Below are positions 6,114 to 17,016 of a stretch of DNA of 17,322 bases, piece after piece. Source of the DNA: a bacterium (lineage in GTDB: Bacteria > JALSQH01). A program made the translations under genes and the position numbers. Positions within the stretch are counted from its first letter, which is position 1; the number at the start of each line of letters is the position of its first letter. The DNA is taken from the NCBI GenBank assembly GCA_026985515.1, contig JALSQH010000058.1:1-17322 (forward strand), in the 5' to 3' direction. A model generated the notes under the pieces. It had not been told where the DNA came from. It saw only the letters and a list, made by a program, of their open reading frames with translations, and did no database searches.

Positions 6114-6780
6114 GATCTTTGTTACAGGGACAGATACAGGGGTGGGAAAAACAGTTTTCACCCTTGCCCTCTGCCTTTTCTTAAAGAGCAGAGGAAAGAA
6201 GTGCAGGGTTATTAAACCTGTTGAGACTGGGTGTGACCCTGTCTGTGAGGATGAGACACTTTACAGAAAATTTCTGGGCGATGACGCTGTTGAGGTCTTT
6301 TACAGACTGAAGTATCCTGCTGCCCCTCTTACCGCAGGAGAAAGGGAGGGGATCGAGATTCCCATTGAGGATTTGAAAGAAAAACTTAAGGGATATGATG
6401 AAGGGGTAACTCTTGTAGAGGGGGCTGGAGGTCTGCTCGTTCCAGTAAATTATGAGACTACCTATCTTGATCTGATTCTCGCACTTGATACTCCCGTTAT
6501 GGTTGTGGCAGGGAATAAACTTGGCGTGATAAATCATACACTTTTAACTGTGGATGTACTTGATAGAAGGGGAATAAAGGGAATTATCATACTGAACGAT
6601 CTTTCTGAAGGGGATCCTTTTCTGCTGGAAGATAATTTGAAGAAAATAAAACATTTTTCGAAAATGCCAGTGGCGGGAAGATTTCCATACATTGAGAAAT
6701 TCACAGAGGATCAACTGATCAGAGGGATTCAGCCTCTCTATACTTCTCTTGAAGAATTCGCTGGAGAGATTCTTCGGTGA
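6094..6780 (+). CDS. bioD: Dethiobiotin synthetase
   Basis: ATP-dependent carboxylation and ring closure of 7,8-diaminopelargonate to dethiobiotin. The protein is 228 residues, the normal size. P-loop GTDTGVGKT (12-20), KPVETG (41-46, with the substrate-binding Lys), EGAGG (109-113) and NKLGVINH (141-148) are all present. The start at 6094 lies inside the bioA 3' end (20-nt overlap), so translation is probably coupled. It is the last gene of the left operon. Its final 62 nt are also the antisense of the last codons of the HD-GYP gene. No intrinsic terminator is visible between the two. Confidence 0.94.
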   Translation: MSDGKGKIFVTGTDTGVGKTVFTLALCLFLKSRGKKCRVIKPVETGCDPVCEDETLYRKFLGDDAVEVFYRLKYPAAPLTAGEREGIEIPIEDLKEKLKGYDEGVTLVEGAGGLLVPVNYETTYLDLILALDTPVMVVAGNKLGVINHTLLTVDVLDRRGIKGIIILNDLSEGDPFLLEDNLKKIKHFSKMPVAGRFPYIEKFTEDQLIRGIQPLYTSLEEFAGEILR

Positions 6781-8320
6781 AACTTTCTATTGCCTCCCTG
6801 TTCTCCTCGTAATATTCGGGAAGGAGAGTTTTTATGGCTTTTTTCCCCTCATCTGAGACCAGGAAGTTGAGAAAAATTCTTGTTAACTGTGGATCGAACT
6901 GGGTACCCATATTGTCAACCAATTCATGGATAACCGATTTGAAGGGCAATCTCTTCCTGTAAGGTCTGTCTGTGGTCATGACATCAAAGCTGTCTGCAAT
7001 GGCAATTATTCTTGCACCAACAGGGATGTGTTCTCCCTTCAGGCCCTCTGGATATCCATTTCCGTCCCACCTTTCATGATGATAATAAACCATGGGAATT
7101 ATGGGCTTGAAGAAGTTTATCGGCTCAAGTATCTTTTTACCCACCTCTGGATGAGTTCTGAAAAGTTCCATTTCATCTTCTGTAAGAGCTGTACTTTTTT
7201 TAAGAGCTGAAAGGTCCATGCCAATTTTTCCTATGTCGTGGAGAAGAGCAGCGTTCCTGATGTTTTCCACCATCTCGTCACTGCATCCACATTTCTTTGC
7301 CAGAATCTCTGCCCAGAAAGCCACTCTTTCTGAATGACCCCTTGTGTATTGATCCTTTGCCTCAACTGCTCTTACAAGACTCTGAATGGTTTCGGTGAAT
7401 ACTTTTTGAAGGTCTTTGAATAGTTCCACATTCTTGAGAGATACACCCGCTCTTGATGCAAGGAGAAACAGGGCCTTTTTATCAACATCGGTGAATTTGT
7501 TAACTTTACTAAGAGATGCAACTGCCACCGTTCCAAGATGTTTCCCGCCGGCTCTCAGGGGAACCATCAGAATGGATGTGATCCCCATCTGGGGAGTCTT
7601 ATCCAGAAATACCTTTCCAACTTCTTCATCTGAGAAGAGAATTATTTTTCCTTCCTGAAAGTATCCTTCGATGAAGGGGAAGTCAATTTTTTTAAATAAT
7701 TCTTCTGGATCTATGTCCTCCCTGGTGGATAATCCCTTTTTGTATATGCACTTTTTATTTTTTTCATCATATCTTCCCACAAAGGCGACATCTGCGAATG
7801 TTGTTTTTATTGATGATTCCACCAGAAGATCATAAATTTTCTCCTCATCCATTATTTCAACAAGCTCCTCAGATGCTCTGTAATTTTCAAGCATCTGTTT
7901 CAAAACAAAGTTTTCACCTTCTACCTTTTTGATTTTCAATGCCTTTTCAACAAGTTTCAGAATCTCAGGAAGTTTAAATGGCTTTACAATATATTCAATT
8001 GCTCCATATTTTCCAGCTTCAACTGCTCCATCGTAAGAGGCGGCTCCAGTCATTACCACCACTGCGGGGGGATTTTTGAACTCCTCCCGGAGCCTCTGAA
8101 GCAGGGATAGTCCGTTGATCTTTCCTGGCATCACCACGTCAGTTATCATCAGGTCGTAGGTTTTTTCGTAGAGTTTTTCGAGAGCTTCTTCTCCACTGGT
8201 TGCAAAATCTGTTTCAAAGCCTTCTTCCTGGAGGAATTCCGAAAGTGATTCTGCCACTCCGGGGTCATCATCCACAACGAGGATTTTTGCTTTTTCAGGC
8301 TGTTGTTGTTTCTCTTCCAT
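6719..8320 (-). CDS. Response regulator with REC, GAF and HD-GYP domains (predicted cyclic di-GMP phosphodiesterase)
   Basis: A 533-residue protein. The receiver domain (about 12-130) has the acidic DDD at 17-19, phosphoacceptor Asp61 in MITDVVMP, and VKPF (112-115). A GAF-like sensor domain spans about 150-300. The HD-GYP domain (about 305-500) has GHSER (328-332), HD at 361-362 (HDIGKIG), HHERWDGNGYP (414-424) and ARIIAIADSFDVMTTDRPYR (436-455). All residues usually needed for metal binding and cyclic di-GMP hydrolysis appear intact, so activity is expected. No membrane segment is seen, so it should be cytoplasmic. The start is the ATG at 8320; GGAG lies 10 nt upstream, inside ttuA, which it overlaps by 26 nt. 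No partner histidine kinase is present, so the input signal is unknown. Confidence 0.92.
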   Translation of the reverse strand: MEEKQQQPEKAKILVVDDDPGVAESLSEFLQEEGFETDFATSGEEALEKLYEKTYDLMITDVVMPGKINGLSLLQRLREEFKNPPAVVVMTGAASYDGAVEAGKYGAIEYIVKPFKLPEILKLVEKALKIKKVEGENFVLKQMLENYRASEELVEIMDEEKIYDLLVESSIKTTFADVAFVGRYDEKNKKCIYKKGLSTREDIDPEELFKKIDFPFIEGYFQEGKIILFSDEEVGKVFLDKTPQMGITSILMVPLRAGGKHLGTVAVASLSKVNKFTDVDKKALFLLASRAGVSLKNVELFKDLQKVFTETIQSLVRAVEAKDQYTRGHSERVAFWAEILAKKCGCSDEMVENIRNAALLHDIGKIGMDLSALKKSTALTEDEMELFRTHPEVGKKILEPINFFKPIIPMVYYHHERWDGNGYPEGLKGEHIPVGARIIAIADSFDVMTTDRPYRKRLPFKSVIHELVDNMGTQFDPQLTRIFLNFLVSDEGKKAIKTLLPEYYEENREAIESFTEESLQRILQEKYREAESL

Positions 8321-9230
8321 TTTCCAGTTTCTCCTTTACCCTCCTCCTGAGTTTGCAGAATCCACATATTTCCCCACTGGAGGGATACCCGCATTCTTTA
8401 CATTCATGCTGCATTTTTGTTTCTTCAGGATAGAGCCTGGCAAATATATTTTTCCTTTCATAAAAGCCTTTCAGGAAGTGCAGTTTTGTGCCGGGGGAAT
8501 AATTCTCAATTTCGTTCAATACATGCTTGTGAAAAATTGATGTAGCCCCGGCTGCATGTGGACACTCCTCATATATATAATCGATTCCTCTCAATATAGT
8601 ATAGGCAGCTATTTCTCTCTCTGTCAAGAAAACAAGTGGTTTAACTTTTCTGATGAGTTTGGGGTGTGTGGAAGGGAGAACAGGACCCTTGCGAGCCAGA
8701 TAGAGATCCTTCCAGTAAAGGAGGTTTCCTAAAAGTGTTGATGCTTCGTCATCGAGATTGTGTCCTGTGGCAAGGACGGTATAACCCTTTTCATAGGCAA
8801 AGCGATTCATGAGGTATCTTTTAATTGTGCCACATACTGAACACGTTTTCCTTTTTGTAATTTTTGCTATTTCTGGAATACCGGTACCGAAAAAGTCCCT
8901 GACATAAATCACCGTGAGTTCGGAGTTTATTTTTTTTGCAAAATTTTCAGCCTTCTGAAGAGATTCATCAGAATATTTTCCGATTCCAAGATGAATATGA
9001 ATTCCCCCTGTTTCGTAACCGAGTCTGGTTAATATGTCCCAGAGAGCAAGACTGTCCTTACCTCCAGAAACTGCCACTGCAACTTTATCATCTTTTGTGA
9101 ACATTTTGTAAGTTTTGATGGCGTTTTTTACCCTTCTCAGAACAAATTCTTCAAAACACTTCTCGCATAACGCAATATTGTGTGCGGGAAGTTTTATTAC
9201 CGCAGGTCTGCCGCAGATTTTACACTTCAT
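8295..9230 (-). CDS. ttuA: tRNA 2-thiolation enzyme of the TtuA/Ncs6 family (tRNA-5-methyluridine(54) 2-sulfurtransferase)
   Basis: ATP-pyrophosphatase family enzyme expected to adenylate C2 of the base at tRNA position 54 and insert sulfur delivered by TtuB. The protein has 311 residues. An N-terminal zinc finger (Cys3, Cys6, Cys22, Cys25) is followed by PP-loop SGGKDS (55-60), Cys130 and Cys133 (TCSVCG), GHNLDDEA (156-163), Cys223, and a C-terminal zinc finger (Cys277, Cys280, Cys289, Cys292). Cys130/133/223 match the three ligands of the catalytic [4Fe-4S] cluster in Thermus TtuA (130/133/222 as I recall). The double zinc fingers separate it from TtcA. The adjacent ttuB and ttuC strongly support the assignment. 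Position 34 thiolation, as in Ncs6/CTU1, is the main alternative. Confidence 0.9.
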   Translation of the reverse strand: MKCKICGRPAVIKLPAHNIALCEKCFEEFVLRRVKNAIKTYKMFTKDDKVAVAVSGGKDSLALWDILTRLGYETGGIHIHLGIGKYSDESLQKAENFAKKINSELTVIYVRDFFGTGIPEIAKITKRKTCSVCGTIKRYLMNRFAYEKGYTVLATGHNLDDEASTLLGNLLYWKDLYLARKGPVLPSTHPKLIRKVKPLVFLTEREIAAYTILRGIDYIYEECPHAAGATSIFHKHVLNEIENYSPGTKLHFLKGFYERKNIFARLYPEETKMQHECKECGYPSSGEICGFCKLRRRVKEKLENGRETTTA

Positions 9231-9237
9231 TGGTTTC

Positions 9238-9438
9238 TTATCCTCCTGAAATTACCATTCTGATTTCTATTTCATCTTCATCTTTCAATCTGTAATCGGG
9301 TGGCAGAATTCTGTTATTTTGCCTGTCAATTACAAGCACTTCTTCCGGATTGAGTTTCAATTTTTTTTCAATGAGGTCTCTGACAGTTATTTCCTGAATC
9401 CTCTCCTCAATGGTTTTTTCTCTCGTGTGAATCTTCAT
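9238..9438 (-). CDS. ttuB: Ubiquitin-like sulfur carrier protein, TtuB/ThiS/MoaD family
   Basis: A 66-residue beta-grasp protein ending MVISGG, the C-terminal Gly-Gly required for adenylation and thiocarboxylate formation. The middle reads LNPEEVLVIDRQNNRILPPD, and an acidic KDEDEIEI strand precedes the tail, as in ThiS/MoaD proteins. It should be activated by the upstream ttuC product and hand sulfur to TtuA. It has no cysteine. The start overlaps the ttuC stop as ATGA (4 nt), and a strong GGAGGTG site (9443-9449) lies within the ttuC end. The context (ttuC, ttuB, ttuA adjacent) favours tRNA thiolation over thiamine or molybdopterin synthesis, for which no genes are seen. In Thermus, TtuB also conjugates to proteins; whether it does here is unknown. 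Confidence 0.88.
   Translation of the reverse strand: MKIHTREKTIEERIQEITVRDLIEKKLKLNPEEVLVIDRQNNRILPPDYRLKDEDEIEIRMVISGG
9241..9247 (-). promoter_or_regulatory. Ribosome binding site of ttuA formed by the Gly-Gly codons of ttuB
   Basis: On the minus strand AGGAGGA lies 10 nt before the ttuA ATG (9230). The two GGA codons in it are the essential C-terminal Gly-Gly of TtuB, followed directly by TAA. It is the only Shine-Dalgarno-like sequence near the ttuA start. Confidence 0.7.
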
Positions 9439-10154
9439 TTTTCACCTCCACAAACAGGGCATCCCGGGTTTTTGCTGTAAGAAATTTCAATCATTTTTCC
9501 ATTTTTCCCATCCCATATCATTAATTTCCCTGATAGTAGTTTTCCATAACCAAGCAAATACTTGAGTACCTCCTGCACCTGAATGGATGCCACAAGTCCC
9601 ACCACTGCTCCGATTGAAGGGATTGTACCTGATGGAGCTGTCGGGGATGCACCGTACAGACAGGCAAGGCAAGGCCCATCTGGAAGAATGGTGGTAACTC
9701 TACCTTCCCACCCATAAATGGCTCCGTGAAAGAGGGGAATTCCATTTTTTACCGCAAATCTGTTAAGTAGCATTCGCGTTTCCATGTTGTCAAGGGCATC
9801 TACAATGGCATCTGCTCCTTTCAACATTTCGATGTTCTTTTCATTGATTTTTTCAGAGAAAATTTCTATTTTCACATCGGGATTAAGTTTCGTTAATCTT
9901 TCTCTTGCCGCTTCAACCTTTTTTTTCCCAAGATCCTCCAGTGTGTATAGGATCTGCCTGTTAAGATTACTTTCAGATACCTGGTCAGGATCCCAGAGGA
10001 GTAATCTGCCTATACCTGCTGCGGTGAGGTAGTATGTTATAAGGGAACCGAGTCCTCCAACACCTGCAACTGCAACAGTTGAGTTCAGAAGTTTCCTCTG
10101 TCCCTCTTCTCCCCAACCATCTGCAATTATCTGTCTCTCGTAGACTTTCCTCAT
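9435..10154 (-). CDS. ttuC: E1-like adenylating enzyme (ThiF/MoeB/HesA family), probable TtuC
   Basis: Expected to adenylate the C-terminal Gly of TtuB with ATP so that it can be converted to a thiocarboxylate. The protein has 239 residues. The nucleotide fold starts with GVGGLG (31-36); family residues follow: Asp55 and Asp57, Asn65-Arg66-Gln67 (SNLNRQI), Lys79 and Asp122 (ALDN). The zinc site is CLAC (Cys162, Cys165) and CPVC (Cys232, Cys235). These are the only cysteines, and the region after the zinc pair reads GTIPSIGAVVG, so the extra cysteine found in ThiF- and TtuC-like enzymes that form covalent intermediates is absent. First gene of the operon. The ATG at 10154 has no clear Shine-Dalgarno, consistent with its very short leader. 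The TtuC name rests on context; HesA-like would fit the domain alone. Confidence 0.82.
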   Translation of the reverse strand: MRKVYERQIIADGWGEEGQRKLLNSTVAVAGVGGLGSLITYYLTAAGIGRLLLWDPDQVSESNLNRQILYTLEDLGKKKVEAARERLTKLNPDVKIEIFSEKINEKNIEMLKGADAIVDALDNMETRMLLNRFAVKNGIPLFHGAIYGWEGRVTTILPDGPCLACLYGASPTAPSGTIPSIGAVVGLVASIQVQEVLKYLLGYGKLLSGKLMIWDGKNGKMIEISYSKNPGCPVCGGEK

Positions 10155-10156
10155 TT

Positions 10157-10175
10157 CTGATAGTTATCATATCAG
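10157..10175 (-). promoter_or_regulatory. Candidate operator palindrome over the ttuC promoter
   Basis: CTGATA (10157-10162) and TATCAG (10170-10175) form an inverted repeat with a 7-nt centre. Inside it, TGATA-GT-TATCA (10158-10169) is a second perfect palindrome. Together they cover the proposed -10 box (10166-10171) and transcription start, where a repressor would block polymerase. The regulator is unknown, and part of the symmetry could arise by chance in AT-rich DNA. Confidence 0.35.
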
Positions 10176-10194
10176 ATTGGGAAAATGCTTACAA
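10166..10194 (-). promoter_or_regulatory. Promoter of the ttuC-ttuB-ttuA-HD-GYP operon
   Basis: On the minus strand TTGTAA (10189-10194) and TATGAT (10166-10171) are separated by exactly 17 nt, close to the sigma-70 consensus. Only 11 nt separate the -10 box from the ttuC ATG, so transcription from this site would start about 4-6 nt before the start codon, giving a nearly leaderless mRNA. Confidence 0.65.
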
Positions 10195-10223
10195 AAGTGG
10201 TAAAGTTTAATCTTCACCCCCTA

Positions 10224-10251
10224 TTGACAGCACGCTTTTTTTCTATAAAAT
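10224..10251 (+). promoter_or_regulatory. Promoter of the tRNA-Gly/tRNA-Cys unit
   Basis: A perfect -35 TTGACA (10224-10229) and TAAAAT (10246-10251, within CTATAAAATATT) have a 16-nt spacer. Transcription would begin around 10258, a few bases before the tRNA-Gly 5' end. It is divergent from the ttuC promoter. Confidence 0.7.
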
Positions 10252-10263
10252 ATTTTGTCGAGA

Positions 10264-11465: not shown

Positions 11466-13009
11466 CCTTCAACAATCTTCTTCAGTTCTTCCTCTATTTT
11501 TAATGGTTCTTTTGGTACTGTACGGTTGTGGATAATTTTTTTCTTATCCAGAGAATTAATATTTTCCGGGATGCTTTTACCCGTTTGTTCCGCCACCATT
11601 CTCACCACTTCAATTCCACTTTTTTCCCTGAGTTCAGGAATATCGTTTTTATCCCGTGCGTATGGAATGGAATGAAGAGCCTTGTAAACATCAATGCCAA
11701 ATTTTGCCCAGTGGGCTGTAGACGCCACTATTATGGGAATGGCGGGATTTTTTGCTGAATATTCCTCGGCGATTTTTACACCGACAGAGGTATGAGGGTC
11801 CATGAGGTAGCTGGTTTCTCTGAAAATTTTATTGAGAAAGGAGAGGGTTTCATCATTTGTGACCCATCCCGGGTAAAAAATTTCACCGAGTTTTTCAAAA
11901 ATGCTTTTTTCAATTTCAAAAAATTTCTTTTCTCTGAGATCTGTCATTATTTTTCTCACATACTCTGTTTCGCCAGACACATGATAGAGTAATCTTTCAA
12001 GATTGGAGGAGATGAGTATGTCCATGGATGGTGAAGGGGTTTTGATAAGTTTTCTATTCCTGAGGTCATATACACCAGCAGTAAAAAAATCGTACAGAAT
12101 TTTGTTCTCGTTGGATGCACAGATCAGTTTCTCTACGGGGATGCCCATTTCTTTTGCATAGTAGGCAGCAAGAATATTTCCAAAATTTCCCGTTGGTACC
12201 GCTATTGTTACTGGTTCCCCGACCCTGATAACATTTTTTTTCACAAGGTGGAGGTATGAAGTTATGTAGTAGACAACCTGTGGGAGTAATCTACCCCAGT
12301 TTATGGAGTTGGCTGAGGAGAGTTTGTAGTTGATGCTTTCAAGATATTGTGTGAATTTTCTATCGGTAAAAATGAACTTAACAGCATTCTGGGCATCATC
12401 AAAGTCGCCCAGAATTCCATAAACATGCTGGTTAAATCCATCCTGGGTTATCATCTGTAATTCCTGAAGATCACTTACACCGCCTTTGGGATAGAGAACC
12501 GTTATCTCAATGTTTTCAAGATTTTTAAAACCTTCAAGAGCAGCTGTTCCTGTGTCTCCAGATGTTGCTACCAGAATCATGTAGTGCAGTGCAGGTTCCC
12601 CCGAGTCCTCCCTTTTCCTGTTCAGTTCTCTGAGAGAAAATTCGAAAAGGAGGGGCATAACCTGAAGAGCCATATCTTTAAACGCTGATGTTGGACCGTG
12701 AAAGAGCTCCACAAGGAAAATTTTCTCCTTGAGATGAACCACAGGTGCAACTTCAGGATGGTTAAATCGTTTAAAGGCTCTTGAAAGGAGGAATTTCAGC
12801 GTTTCGTCATCGATGTCCACTTCAAATTTTTTGAAGATATGGAATGCAACCTCTCTGTATGGAAGGGAAGAGAATTTTTCAAGTTCATCCATGGATAGTG
12901 CGGGAATTTTTTCAGGGACAAACAGCCCTCCATCAGGGGCTATACCCTTCAGGATCACTTCCTGGAATGAAAAGTTGAGATTTGCGTCTCTGGTGCTAAA
13001 GTACCTCAT
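11462..13009 (-). CDS. thrC: Threonine synthase
   Basis: PLP enzyme converting O-phosphohomoserine to threonine. The 515 residues place it in the longer E. coli/yeast-like class. It opens MRYFSTRDANLNFSFQEVIL and continues GIAPDGGLFVP (22-32), as in that class. The PLP lysine is Lys111 in HGPTSAFKDMALQ (104-116). TSGDTGTAALEGF and the PLP phosphate loop PTGNFGN are present. CCTCC at 13019-13023 (GGAGG on the coding strand) lies 9 nt before the ATG. The gene overlaps the phosphatase by 14 nt and the hydrolase by 4 nt. No thrA, thrB or lysC is nearby, so an amino-acid gene here sits in a polysaccharide operon. Confidence 0.95.
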   Translation of the reverse strand: MRYFSTRDANLNFSFQEVILKGIAPDGGLFVPEKIPALSMDELEKFSSLPYREVAFHIFKKFEVDIDDETLKFLLSRAFKRFNHPEVAPVVHLKEKIFLVELFHGPTSAFKDMALQVMPLLFEFSLRELNRKREDSGEPALHYMILVATSGDTGTAALEGFKNLENIEITVLYPKGGVSDLQELQMITQDGFNQHVYGILGDFDDAQNAVKFIFTDRKFTQYLESINYKLSSANSINWGRLLPQVVYYITSYLHLVKKNVIRVGEPVTIAVPTGNFGNILAAYYAKEMGIPVEKLICASNENKILYDFFTAGVYDLRNRKLIKTPSPSMDILISSNLERLLYHVSGETEYVRKIMTDLREKKFFEIEKSIFEKLGEIFYPGWVTNDETLSFLNKIFRETSYLMDPHTSVGVKIAEEYSAKNPAIPIIVASTAHWAKFGIDVYKALHSIPYARDKNDIPELREKSGIEVVRMVAEQTGKSIPENINSLDKKKIIHNRTVPKEPLKIEEELKKIVEG

Positions 13010-13700
13010 TTCTGCTTTCCTCCAGAAGGATAAGGGGATTTTCTTCTGTCATTTCCAGCCAGTATTTTTCACATGCTGTTTCCCTGAGAACTGGTAAAGT
13101 TTGACCGATGAGTTTCAGCTGTGAATGTGAATGGGTATCGGTGGCAAGGAAGTCATACATTTTTTCATTGAGGAGTTTGAGGAACTGTTTTTTTATGTAC
13201 CTCCCATATATTCCGGCAAAGCTTCCCATGTTTCCCTGCAAAAGCCCACCTCTTCTTTTAAATTCTTCAACAAATTGTGGTATGGAGGAGATCCATTCAT
13301 ATCTTTCTGGATGAGCGAGGATAGGGATATAACCTTCTGTTACGATTTTGAAGATGATGTGCTCCCAGTTTATTGGAGGTATAGAAAAAGAAAATTCAAT
13401 GAGAATATGTTTGCCATCGGGATAGGGGAGAATATTTTTCTTTTCCAGCTTTTCAAGGAAATTGAAATCAACAAAGTATTCCCTGGTTGAGAAGATTTTA
13501 ATATTGCTCTTTTTCATCCTGCTGGTTATTTCTGTTAATCTTTCATCCGGCACTTCAAAAAGTCCAGGATAACAGTGGGTTGTTTCCACTACATGGGTGA
13601 ATCCAAGTTCGTAATATGTTTCCATTATTGCTTCAGTTTCTCTCATAGCTTCCGGGCCATCGTCAAGACCCGCTATGAAGTGGGAATGAATATCAATCAT
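12996..13700 (-). CDS. PHP-type tyrosine-protein phosphatase, CpsB/YwqE family
   Basis: Metal-dependent phosphatase expected to remove phosphate from the tyrosine cluster of the adjacent Wzc-like kinase. The protein has 234 residues. PHP metal-binding motifs are MIDIHSHFIAGLDDGP (His5, His7), TTHCYP (His42), Glu102, ILAHPERY (His130) and ATDTHSH (Asp188, His190). The ATG at 13700 is preferred: it begins the conserved MIDIHSH motif and overlaps wzc by 8 nt. The longer frame would begin with TTG at 13739 and overlap wzc by 47 nt. The enzyme is soluble with no signal peptide. CpsB-type phosphatases are best known from Firmicutes; here one accompanies Gram-negative-style Wza and Wzc. It overlaps thrC by 14 nt. 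Confidence 0.9.
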   Translation of the reverse strand: MIDIHSHFIAGLDDGPEAMRETEAIMETYYELGFTHVVETTHCYPGLFEVPDERLTEITSRMKKSNIKIFSTREYFVDFNFLEKLEKKNILPYPDGKHILIEFSFSIPPINWEHIIFKIVTEGYIPILAHPERYEWISSIPQFVEEFKRRGGLLQGNMGSFAGIYGRYIKKQFLKLLNEKMYDFLATDTHSHSQLKLIGQTLPVLRETACEKYWLEMTEENPLILLEESRNEVL

Positions 13701-16029
13701 TTCTATTTTTCCCTTTCTCTCTTTTGAAGAATCCTCCAATGCGGCTTATAAATTTTTTCACAGAAAAAGTTGGCGTTTCATCTTCTCCATAGTATGTATA
13801 GTAGTAGCCGTACCTTTTTTCTTTTGGTGAAACATTGTTAAATATTGCACCCTTCAGTTTGCCTCCAACGTTACCAATCAATTCAACAGCTCTTTTTACA
13901 TTCTCCCTTCTGCTTGATCCCTCGACGACTACCAGGAATACTGCGTCAACAATGGTGGAAAGGATCAGAGTATCTGTCACAGCTGTGACGGGGGGTGAAT
14001 CTATGAGAATGAAGTTGAACTGTTCCTTCAGGTCTGAGAGGAATTTTCTGAAGGGCTCTGAAGAGAGAATTTCAGAGGGATTCGGTGGAATAGTTCCGGA
14101 AGGTATGAGATACAGGTTTTTGAAACCTGTCTCTCGAATAATCTGGCTTATGGAGAGTTTTCCGTGGGAGGTAATGTAATCTGTCACTCCCGGAATCTGC
14201 TCCTTTCCAAAAATCTTGTGCTGTCTGGGTTTGTGGAGGTCAAGGTCCAGAATAAGCGTCCTGTGACCAAGTTCTGAGAGTGTGATGGCAAGATTGGCTG
14301 TGGTTATTGATTTTCCTTCCTGGGGAAGCGCACTTGTCATTAAAAGAGCTTTGGTCTGACCGGTGGGGTCGATAAACTGAATGTTTGTCCTGAGCATTCT
14401 GTATGCTTCAGATACATGGGACCTGGGATTGTAGTGAACAATTAAATATGGATCAAAATTTTCCTTCTCTCCATTTTGAGGTGGGTAGATTTTTGGAATT
14501 ATGCCGAAAATAGGAAGATTGGCGATGTGTTTCAGCTCATCGATGCTCTTTATTGTGTCGTTGATATAGTCATAGGTCACGACGAGGAAGATTGCTGAGA
14601 GTAATCCAAAAATGAATGTGAGGAGGAGAATCAGTTTTTTCCTCGGTGCCACCGGTGTTGTGGGAGGTATTGCCGGATCTATTACTCTAATTTTGCTCAC
14701 TGTCATTGCCTTTGTGATTCGGGCTTCTTCTTTTTTCTTGAGAAGAAATTTGTAAATATCCTCTGTTACTGTCAATTTCCTTTTAAGCCTTAAAATTTCT
14801 CTCTCTGACTCTGGAAATTTTTTCATCTTATCCAGCAGTATCTTTATTGTGGCTGAGAGTTGTTCCTGCTGAATCTTCAATTCACTTGCCCGGGACCTGA
14901 GATAGTTGAACAGTTCCCTCTTTTCCTGATTCAACTGATTCTTTAGTGTCAGAACATTGGGCGAATCCTCTGTGTACTCGGTGAGAAGCGATGCAATCTG
15001 ACTTTTCAATTCAGTAATCCGGGAAATAATCCCCTGAAGCACCTCATCCTGCTCCATCGAAGGATAGAGCAGTGGTGCTCTGTTCTTTTTAAGACTTTCC
15101 AGTACCGATCGGTATGTATTTTCCATGAATTTGAGTTGATAGAGTCGCGATTCAAGACTGGACAGCTGGTCAACATAGTTCTGCACTTCCTCGTCAATAG
15201 CAAATATTTTCTTCTTCTTTTTCAAGTCGTCGTAGGTTTTTTCCAGTTGATTGAGCTGTGAGATTATAAACTTGAGTTGCCCGTCAATGAATTTTAACGA
15301 CTTTGTTGCTTCCTCTGTTCTTGCCTCAATGTTCCATTCAATATATTTTTCCGCTATTTTGTTTGCAATTCTCGCAGCCATGCAGGGATCTGGATCCTCA
15401 ACCGAAACTTTTATGATTCTTGTTTTCTCCTCAACATAGTTGGCAGATGTATTTTCCATCAGTTTCTTAACTGCCTTTCTGAAGGGAAGGATAAGTATTT
15501 TACCAGAGGTTTTTTCACTGAATTTCAGAGCACGGATATACACTCCCCATTTACCATAGGTTACCGGGGTGTTGAATGTCCCTCTCAGAGTAAAACCGTT
15601 GTCTCCCTTTATCTCAAAATCTCCCTCTCTGTCAAGTACCTCTATTCTGTATTCACCACCAGGTGGGAGTTTTACCCATTCTACCACTATATCAGCGCCG
15701 GGCAGAAAGACTCTGGTAAAAAGCTTCAGATCCCTCACCACCTTTTCTGCAATTGTCCGGCTCTTGATTATGTAAAGCTCTGTTTTCCCCTTGTTCTGAG
15801 CTCCCACGGGAGAAAGACTCTCCCACCATGCCTCAGGCTGTTTTTCAATCAGCAGTGTGGTTGAGGCTGAGTAGACCGGTTCTTTCAGAATAATGTAGAC
15901 GATTCCCCCTATTACAGCGAGGGAGGTAATTACCACTATGTGAAGCATATACCGGTTTATAATCCAGAGCAGATTTTTGAGATTGAGTTCATCATCTTTT
16001 CTGTAGTAATGTTCTTCAGTCAGGCTCAT
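13693..16029 (-). CDS. wzc: Wzc-like polysaccharide co-polymerase and bacterial tyrosine kinase
   Basis: Inner-membrane protein controlling chain length and export of capsule or exopolysaccharide, with an autophosphorylating BY-kinase domain. The protein has 778 residues. It contains TM1 (about 30-48), a Wzz domain, long coiled coils (about 240-435), proline-rich DPAIPPTTPVAP (451-462), TM2 (about 466-486) and the cytoplasmic kinase. Walker A is SALPQEGKS (566-574), Walker A' ILDLDLHKP (593-601) and Walker B ILIDSPP (674-680). A C-terminal tyrosine cluster has six Tyr in eight residues (740-747). The ATG at 16029 is chosen over the TTG at 16032 because AGGTGA (16036-16041) lies 6 nt upstream of the ATG. 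It lies 6 nt after the wza stop. Membrane and kinase modules are in one chain, as in Proteobacteria. Confidence 0.93.
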   Translation of the reverse strand: MSLTEEHYYRKDDELNLKNLLWIINRYMLHIVVITSLAVIGGIVYIILKEPVYSASTTLLIEKQPEAWWESLSPVGAQNKGKTELYIIKSRTIAEKVVRDLKLFTRVFLPGADIVVEWVKLPPGGEYRIEVLDREGDFEIKGDNGFTLRGTFNTPVTYGKWGVYIRALKFSEKTSGKILILPFRKAVKKLMENTSANYVEEKTRIIKVSVEDPDPCMAARIANKIAEKYIEWNIEARTEEATKSLKFIDGQLKFIISQLNQLEKTYDDLKKKKKIFAIDEEVQNYVDQLSSLESRLYQLKFMENTYRSVLESLKKNRAPLLYPSMEQDEVLQGIISRITELKSQIASLLTEYTEDSPNVLTLKNQLNQEKRELFNYLRSRASELKIQQEQLSATIKILLDKMKKFPESEREILRLKRKLTVTEDIYKFLLKKKEEARITKAMTVSKIRVIDPAIPPTTPVAPRKKLILLLTFIFGLLSAIFLVVTYDYINDTIKSIDELKHIANLPIFGIIPKIYPPQNGEKENFDPYLIVHYNPRSHVSEAYRMLRTNIQFIDPTGQTKALLMTSALPQEGKSITTANLAITLSELGHRTLILDLDLHKPRQHKIFGKEQIPGVTDYITSHGKLSISQIIRETGFKNLYLIPSGTIPPNPSEILSSEPFRKFLSDLKEQFNFILIDSPPVTAVTDTLILSTIVDAVFLVVVEGSSRRENVKRAVELIGNVGGKLKGAIFNNVSPKEKRYGYYYTYYGEDETPTFSVKKFISRIGGFFKREKGKNRND

Positions 16030-16035
16030 CAATCT

Positions 16036-17016
16036 TCACCTTTTTCTCAGATCCTGGATCATGTAATAATCTCTCACAACCCCAAATGGCTGAACAAGGA
16101 ACATGTTGAGTGTTGGTTGAATAAGGGAAATGATCCTGTTCCACTCCCCCACAGGGCTGGATGGCACATAAACAACATCATCCGGGTAGAGAAAAACATC
16201 CTGCAGATGCTTTAAGTCTGGATAGAAGTAGCTTATAACCCTTATCTGAACTTTTCCTTTACCCCAGTGAAGAATCCCGATCTGGCTTCTCCATGCATCA
16301 TTTCTGAATCCTCCTGCCTGGGCTATTGCTTCCCAGACTGTGGGGTGGGCAGACTGAAGAGGATAGCTTCCGGGATGGTTTACGGCTCCCAGCACAATCA
16401 CTCTCATATTTGTTGTCTTTTCCACAATGAGGGTGTCGCCTCTCACAATATAGATTTTTTTCAATAGCTTGAGGTTTCGTGGATCAAGCGGATAAACCAC
16501 CCCTTTCCTTATGAGAAACCAGCGGTAAAAAGAAGCTTCTGATGTGGTGCCTCCAGCAATTCCTATGGCATCCATTATGGTTACTGGCTTGAGAAGGGGG
16601 TAATTCCCGGGCTGTGACACAGCTCCAAGAATGGAGTATCTTGCCCCTGTGATTCTGAGGGGTGAAACACTTACAACAGGTTTTTTCAGAATTTTTTTCA
16701 ATTTCAGCTGAATTTTTTTCTGCAATTCACTGAGTTTCAATCCCTGAACTTTTATGCTTCCAATTCTGGGAATTGTGATTGTTCCATCATCTTTTACCAT
16801 CTCCTGTTCCACAGAGAGTTCAGGATGTTGAAAAACAGTGATTGACAGGACATCATAGGGAGAAACTGTGTATTCATCTTTCTGTGTGAGATCAATTTCA
16901 ATGTTTCTTTCTTCTTCATTGATAGATAGATGCACTTTACCCTCATGTGCCCTGTAGCATCCGTTTGTCAGAAAAAGGGAGAAAATATAGAAGAAAAATG
17001 GTAGAATTTTTTTAAT
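16036..17016 (-). CDS. wza: Wza-like outer-membrane polysaccharide export lipoprotein, probable AUU start
   Basis: Exporter of the OPX family that forms the outer-membrane exit for capsule or exopolysaccharide. Conserved sequence includes the poly-export domain (YTVSPYDVLSITVFQHPELS, DDGTITIPRIGSIKVQG) and two SLBB-type repeats (ILGAVSQPGNYPL; VLGAVNHPGSYPL), ending in an amphipathic helix-like tail. The first conventional start is GTG at 16935 (299 residues), but the frame is open to 17046. The stretch from 17016 encodes KK, a hydrophobic FFFYIFSLFL run, then TNGC with Cys20, which is a lipoprotein signal peptide. No ATG, GTG or TTG lies in this extension. The ATT at 17014-17016 is 7 nt after AGGGGG, so I propose AUU initiation (326 residues). 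The lipobox (LTNGC) is imperfect. Confidence 0.88.
   Translation of the reverse strand: MKKILPFFFYIFSLFLTNGCYRAHEGKVHLSINEEERNIEIDLTQKDEYTVSPYDVLSITVFQHPELSVEQEMVKDDGTITIPRIGSIKVQGLKLSELQKKIQLKLKKILKKPVVSVSPLRITGARYSILGAVSQPGNYPLLKPVTIMDAIGIAGGTTSEASFYRWFLIRKGVVYPLDPRNLKLLKKIYIVRGDTLIVEKTTNMRVIVLGAVNHPGSYPLQSAHPTVWEAIAQAGGFRNDAWRSQIGILHWGKGKVQIRVISYFYPDLKHLQDVFLYPDDVVYVPSSPVGEWNRIISLIQPTLNMFLVQPFGVVRDYYMIQDLRKR

Follow-up and report, generated by a model that had tools for sequence, protein, structure and literature searches.

A putative operon for 2-thiolation of tRNA position 54 in a bacterium with reverse gyrase

Gene order at the locus

In the window (the whole stretch of 17,322 nucleotides analysed), the minus strand carries, one after another from 10154 to 8295, open reading frames for an E1-like protein, a ubiquitin-like protein (Ubl) and a thiolase. 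The first, a TtuC-type E1-like adenylyltransferase (9435..10154; 239 aa), was annotated from its Pfam ThiF match and alignment; the second, a TtuB-type ubiquitin-like sulfur carrier (9238..9438; 66 aa), from Pfam ThiS, a family alignment, an AlphaFold model and Foldseek; and the third, a TtuA-type tRNA m5U54 2-thiolase (8295..9230; 311 aa), from Pfam, NCBIfam and PDB matches, a tree and its cysteines. The stop codon of the E1 gene overlaps the start of ttuB in an ATGA, and ttuB and ttuA are separated by 7 nt. The sequence-only reading had described three tightly coupled genes in one operon, and the coordinates, the overlap, the gap and the family matches all agree with it. Chance open reading frames were ruled out by family scores far beyond chance (ThiF 2e-70, TtuA_LIM_N 3e-11, ThiS 3e-5 and PDB 5gha 4.5e-92).

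The GGA GGA codons of the terminal Gly-Gly of TtuB (9238-9246) double as a Shine-Dalgarno-like sequence for ttuA, and this end of ttuB is likely the ribosome-binding site of the thiolase gene. Downstream on the same strand, a gene for a response regulator-GAF-HD (HD_5) protein (6719..8320, minus strand; Pfam and NCBIfam domains) starts within ttuA, overlapping its end by 26 nt (8295-8320); it is probably co-transcribed with ttuA, and has no known link to tRNA thiolation. The divergent intergenic region between ttuC and a tRNA-Gly gene (10155..10263) is the expected site of the operon promoter. It holds a weak sigma-70-like match (9/12; minus strand, 10194-10166), and promoter and terminator scans returned nothing above shuffled sequences, the number of promoter-like sites included. 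Elsewhere in the window, translations at 12996-16935 read as a capsule- or exopolysaccharide-like cluster (PHP-type phosphatase, Wzz/tyrosine kinase and polysaccharide export protein).

Thiolase, carrier and activating enzyme

The thiolase carries the PP-loop SGGKDS at residues 55-60, the Fe-S cluster ligands C130, C133 and C223 (CxxC plus C), and two sets of four zinc cysteines (C3/C6/C22/C25 and C277/C280/C289/C292). It matches Pfam TtuA_LIM_N (3e-11) and, in the PDB, Thermus TtuA 5gha (4.5e-92), Pyrococcus TtuA 3vrh (3.5e-88) and NcsA 6scy (8e-35). Among the NCBIfam models, that for TtuA matched best with 330 bits, ahead of NcsA with 140 and TtcA with 82; the 330 bits fall short of the TtuA equivalog cut-off of 450, so exact orthology is left uncertified, as it is for the E1. 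The sequence-only reading had assigned the protein to position 54, and in a FastTree phylogeny, set beforehand as the test that could refute this, it falls inside the TtuA clade with Thermus and Pyrococcus TtuA, its neighbour being the deltaproteobacterial L102 (the tree included a single NcsA plus six further PP-loop proteins, and deeper support within the TtuA clade is weak).

A thiolase that acts at wobble U34, like NcsA/Ncs6, would come from the same enzyme superfamily: Methanococcus maripaludis NcsA (6scy) aligns over the full length and has the PP-loop, the three-cysteine Fe-S site and two zinc fingers as well. However, it scores much lower (140 against 330 bits) and, as the single NcsA in the tree, lies outside the TtuA clade. 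In addition, a separate MnmA is encoded in the genome (over its cut-off), so that U34 has a thiolase of its own. Action at U34 is therefore very unlikely, and the comparisons support placing the thiolase with the position-54 enzymes of Thermus and Pyrococcus rather than with position-34 NcsA.

The Ubl ends in Ile-Ser-Gly-Gly (...MVISGG) and matches Pfam ThiS above the cut-off (3e-5), in keeping with its earlier reading as a ubiquitin-like carrier. A single-sequence search matched it to TtuB only weakly (0.056). When it was aligned with TtuBs adjoining ttuA elsewhere, the SGG was invariant; a profile search from this alignment also favoured TtuB, but is less independent, since the alignment includes a Thermus-type TtuB. 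The AlphaFold model of the Ubl (pLDDT 88) found Thermus TtuB chains, 5ztb and 5gha, as its best Foldseek matches. Taken together, sequence, tree and predicted fold group the thiolase and this carrier with the position-54 proteins known from Thermus and Pyrococcus.

The E1 comprises a full ThiF/MoeB adenylation domain (Pfam ThiF 2.1e-70) with the motifs GVGGLGS and DPDQVSESNLNRQ; its NCBIfam UbaA and MoeB matches are below their cut-offs. All four of its cysteines belong to two CxxC zinc pairs (C162/C165 and C232/C235). In the alignment it lacks the crossover-loop cysteine that ThiF and most E1s related to it possess, and its loop reads PTAPSGTIPSIGAV. E1s from Thermococcus (L149) and from bacteria (L146 and L148) likewise lack this cysteine; the window E1 branches near them and is 51% identical to L149.

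The E1 is the sole full ThiF-family gene in the genome, and the sole other ThiS-family gene encodes a MoaD-type Ubl and adjoins a gene for aldehyde:ferredoxin oxidoreductase (AOR). Because of these two facts the E1 probably takes part in more than one pathway, and by analogy a single E1 probably serves both TtuB and the MoaD-type carrier: in Thermus one E1, TtuC, is common to several Ubls (PMC3980101), and in Thermococcus kodakarensis, which also has a single E1, one of the Ubls is linked to AOR (PMC11323500). The same two facts could be taken to mean that the E1-Ubl pair serves mainly molybdenum/tungsten cofactor or thiamine synthesis and lies beside ttuA by chance or convenience; yet the Ubl of the pair is TtuB-like by predicted fold and directly coupled to ttuA, an arrangement that recurs among the loci described below, and there is little probability in this reading. 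The second Ubl gene is directly downstream of that for AOR (L001:30-1725), like tk1065/tk1066 of T. kodakarensis.

Least probable of all is that the three genes serve chiefly to conjugate a ubiquitin-like protein to other proteins: Thermus TtuB does conjugate to TtuA and TtuC (PMC3980101), K137, one of the lysines of Thermus TtuA to which TtuB attaches (PMC3980101), is conserved in the thiolase, and T. kodakarensis Ubls form conjugates too (PMC11323500), but no E2 or E3 gene adjoins the three genes, the E1 has no thioester cysteine, and an operon that includes TtuA suggests transfer of sulfur. By analogy with Thermus, conjugation may be a side activity of the sulfur-transfer set, and TtuB may have the protein-modifier role mentioned in the sequence-only reading.

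Genome complement and the source of sulfur

The genome that contains the window (G000) spans 2.36 Mb in 268 contigs and is 97.6% complete; one relative, a sister genome (G001; 80% complete), belongs to the same family, and the other relatives listed share only the domain. The assembly contains no SSU rRNA. It encodes TrmFO (m5U54; 624 bits) and a TrmI-type methyltransferase (m1A58; GCD14, 132 bits). Every T-loop read among 36 tRNA predictions, some of which are duplicates, contains TTCRA, that is, U54 and A58, and the mean G+C content of 29 tRNA bodies is 64%. Two divergent reverse gyrases are present (L190, G000:C220, 1177 bits and 1126 aa; L191, G000:C120, about 966 bits and at least 936 aa, cut by a contig end), which make growth at high temperature likely, and the bacterium is probably thermophilic. 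The sequence-only reading had taken the operon as a pointer to heat; growth at high temperature is upheld as likely through the reverse gyrases, while the operon by itself is no proof, as many bacteria that are apparently not thermophiles have TtuB-TtuA pairs too.

The cysteine desulfurase had been noted as missing from the window. It is indeed not in the window, and no IscS, SufS or NifS was found in the draft genomes of this bacterium or its sister. Searching the genome for aminotransferase class V (PF00266) gave eleven matches, the strongest being a glyoxylate-type aminotransferase and an MfnA-like decarboxylase, and the further ones of glycine dehydrogenase, DegT, HisC, aspartate aminotransferase and KBL/BioF types (all but the last two weak matches were read, and the last types were named from sequence reading). 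Each match read was another PLP enzyme, and none was accepted as IscS. The best match to the NifS model is partial, at 74 bits, to the MfnA-like decarboxylase (68 bits in the sister genome), whereas 14 of 19 genomes put through this search gave full or near-full matches. With only partial NifS matches and PLP enzymes that are not desulfurases, true absence of a cysteine desulfurase from the genome is likely, though unproven. A general rule tying the Cys-less E1 to a missing desulfurase was rejected, as other genomes with a Cys-less E1 have a desulfurase.

Since no desulfurase was found, the sulfur may come from sulfide. Organisms without the enzyme are thought to use sulfide, which is accepted by Thermus TtuA in vitro and, at millimolar concentration, can thiocarboxylate Escherichia coli MoaD (PMC11323500). 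Sulfide-driven thiocarboxylation of TtuB is thus, in our inference, the most economical reading.

Proposed pathway and distribution of TtuA loci

Taken from the gene identities, the operon very probably serves 2-thiolation of 5-methyluridine 54 in tRNA. In the proposed scheme, the E1 would adenylate the C-terminal glycine of TtuB, and the adenylate would react with sulfur to give a thiocarboxylate; TtuA, with a [4Fe-4S] cluster on C130/C133/C223, would use ATP to activate C2 of U54 and then insert the sulfur, TrmFO and TrmI supplying the m5U54 and m1A58 context. With no desulfurase found and no crossover cysteine in the E1, sulfide or a persulfide would most likely attack the TtuB adenylate, and no E1-bound acyl-persulfide would form. 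A wider proposal is held more tentatively, at somewhat under even chances: a desulfurase-free bacterial pathway, in which the Cys-less E1 would form the TtuB adenylate and environmental sulfide would yield the thiocarboxylate for T54 thiolation and also, via the MoaD-type carrier, for tungstopterin.

The nearest known system is TtuA/TtuB/TtuC of Thermus thermophilus (m5s2U54), with three homologous proteins and one E1 for several Ubls, as is probable here; in a Thermus-type genome (L005), ttuB likewise adjoins ttuA. It differs in that a Thermus-type E1 (L161) has the crossover cysteine and that IscS/SufS are used there, whereas in the window the E1 gene sits in the operon. The UblA/TK2117/TtuA system of T. 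kodakarensis resembles ours in the single E1 and the MoaD-type Ubl beside AOR, and use of inorganic sulfur has been discussed for it (PMC11323500), but that archaeon has a cysteine desulfurase and NcsA, and its ublA is monocistronic, while the window is bacterial. Closest in layout is a Thermanaeromonas-type E1-ttuB-ttuA cluster (L067), with the same gene order and strand; its E1, however, has the cysteine (PTCQEAG) and lies ~300 nt from ttuB, and its genome has a cysteine desulfurase. The locus is thus well supported as the known TtuA/B/C pathway, from which the Cys-less E1 and the apparent lack of a desulfurase are departures, and not as a new system. With it, the known range of T54 thiolation comes to include a reverse gyrase-bearing bacterial lineage that has been little sampled. 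Should the absence of the desulfurase be true, Ubl thiocarboxylation in this bacterium must use another sulfur source, so far discussed mainly for archaea.

A scan of species genomes listed at least 80 TtuA loci, from Anaerolineae, Hydrothermarchaeota, Thermoanaerobacter, Nitrospirota, Rokubacteria, Acidimicrobiia and others. An SGG-type Ubl adjoins ttuA in 52 of the 80 loci listed. Three loci have an E1-family gene no more than 6 kb away, and L067 is the one among these that shares the window's order; both counts are lower bounds because many loci end at contig ends. The three-gene linkage is not unique to this bacterium.

Many of the TtuA sources are apparently mesophilic (Nitrospira, fen, freshwater and activated sludge), as judged from record titles only. 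The spread of TtuA in such bacteria appears at odds with m5s2U54 as a thermophile-specific modification; according to a review it is not found in mesophiles (PMC6313347), and our literature search of open-licence papers found no report of TtuA in mesophiles. TtuB-TtuA pairs in apparent non-thermophiles make this specificity directly testable. Among L065-L144, TtuA, often with adjoining TtuB, was seen in mesophilic-looking Nitrospira, Acidimicrobiia, Ilumatobacter and Anaerolineae of fen or sludge. Nitrospira moscoviensis (L085), a mesophile, carries ttuA, with no TtuB seen next to it. Finally, 27 of 56 TtuB-like proteins adjoining ttuA (L069, L073, L076, L079, L118, L126 and others) carry one to four residues after Gly-Gly, so that they would need trimming before activation.
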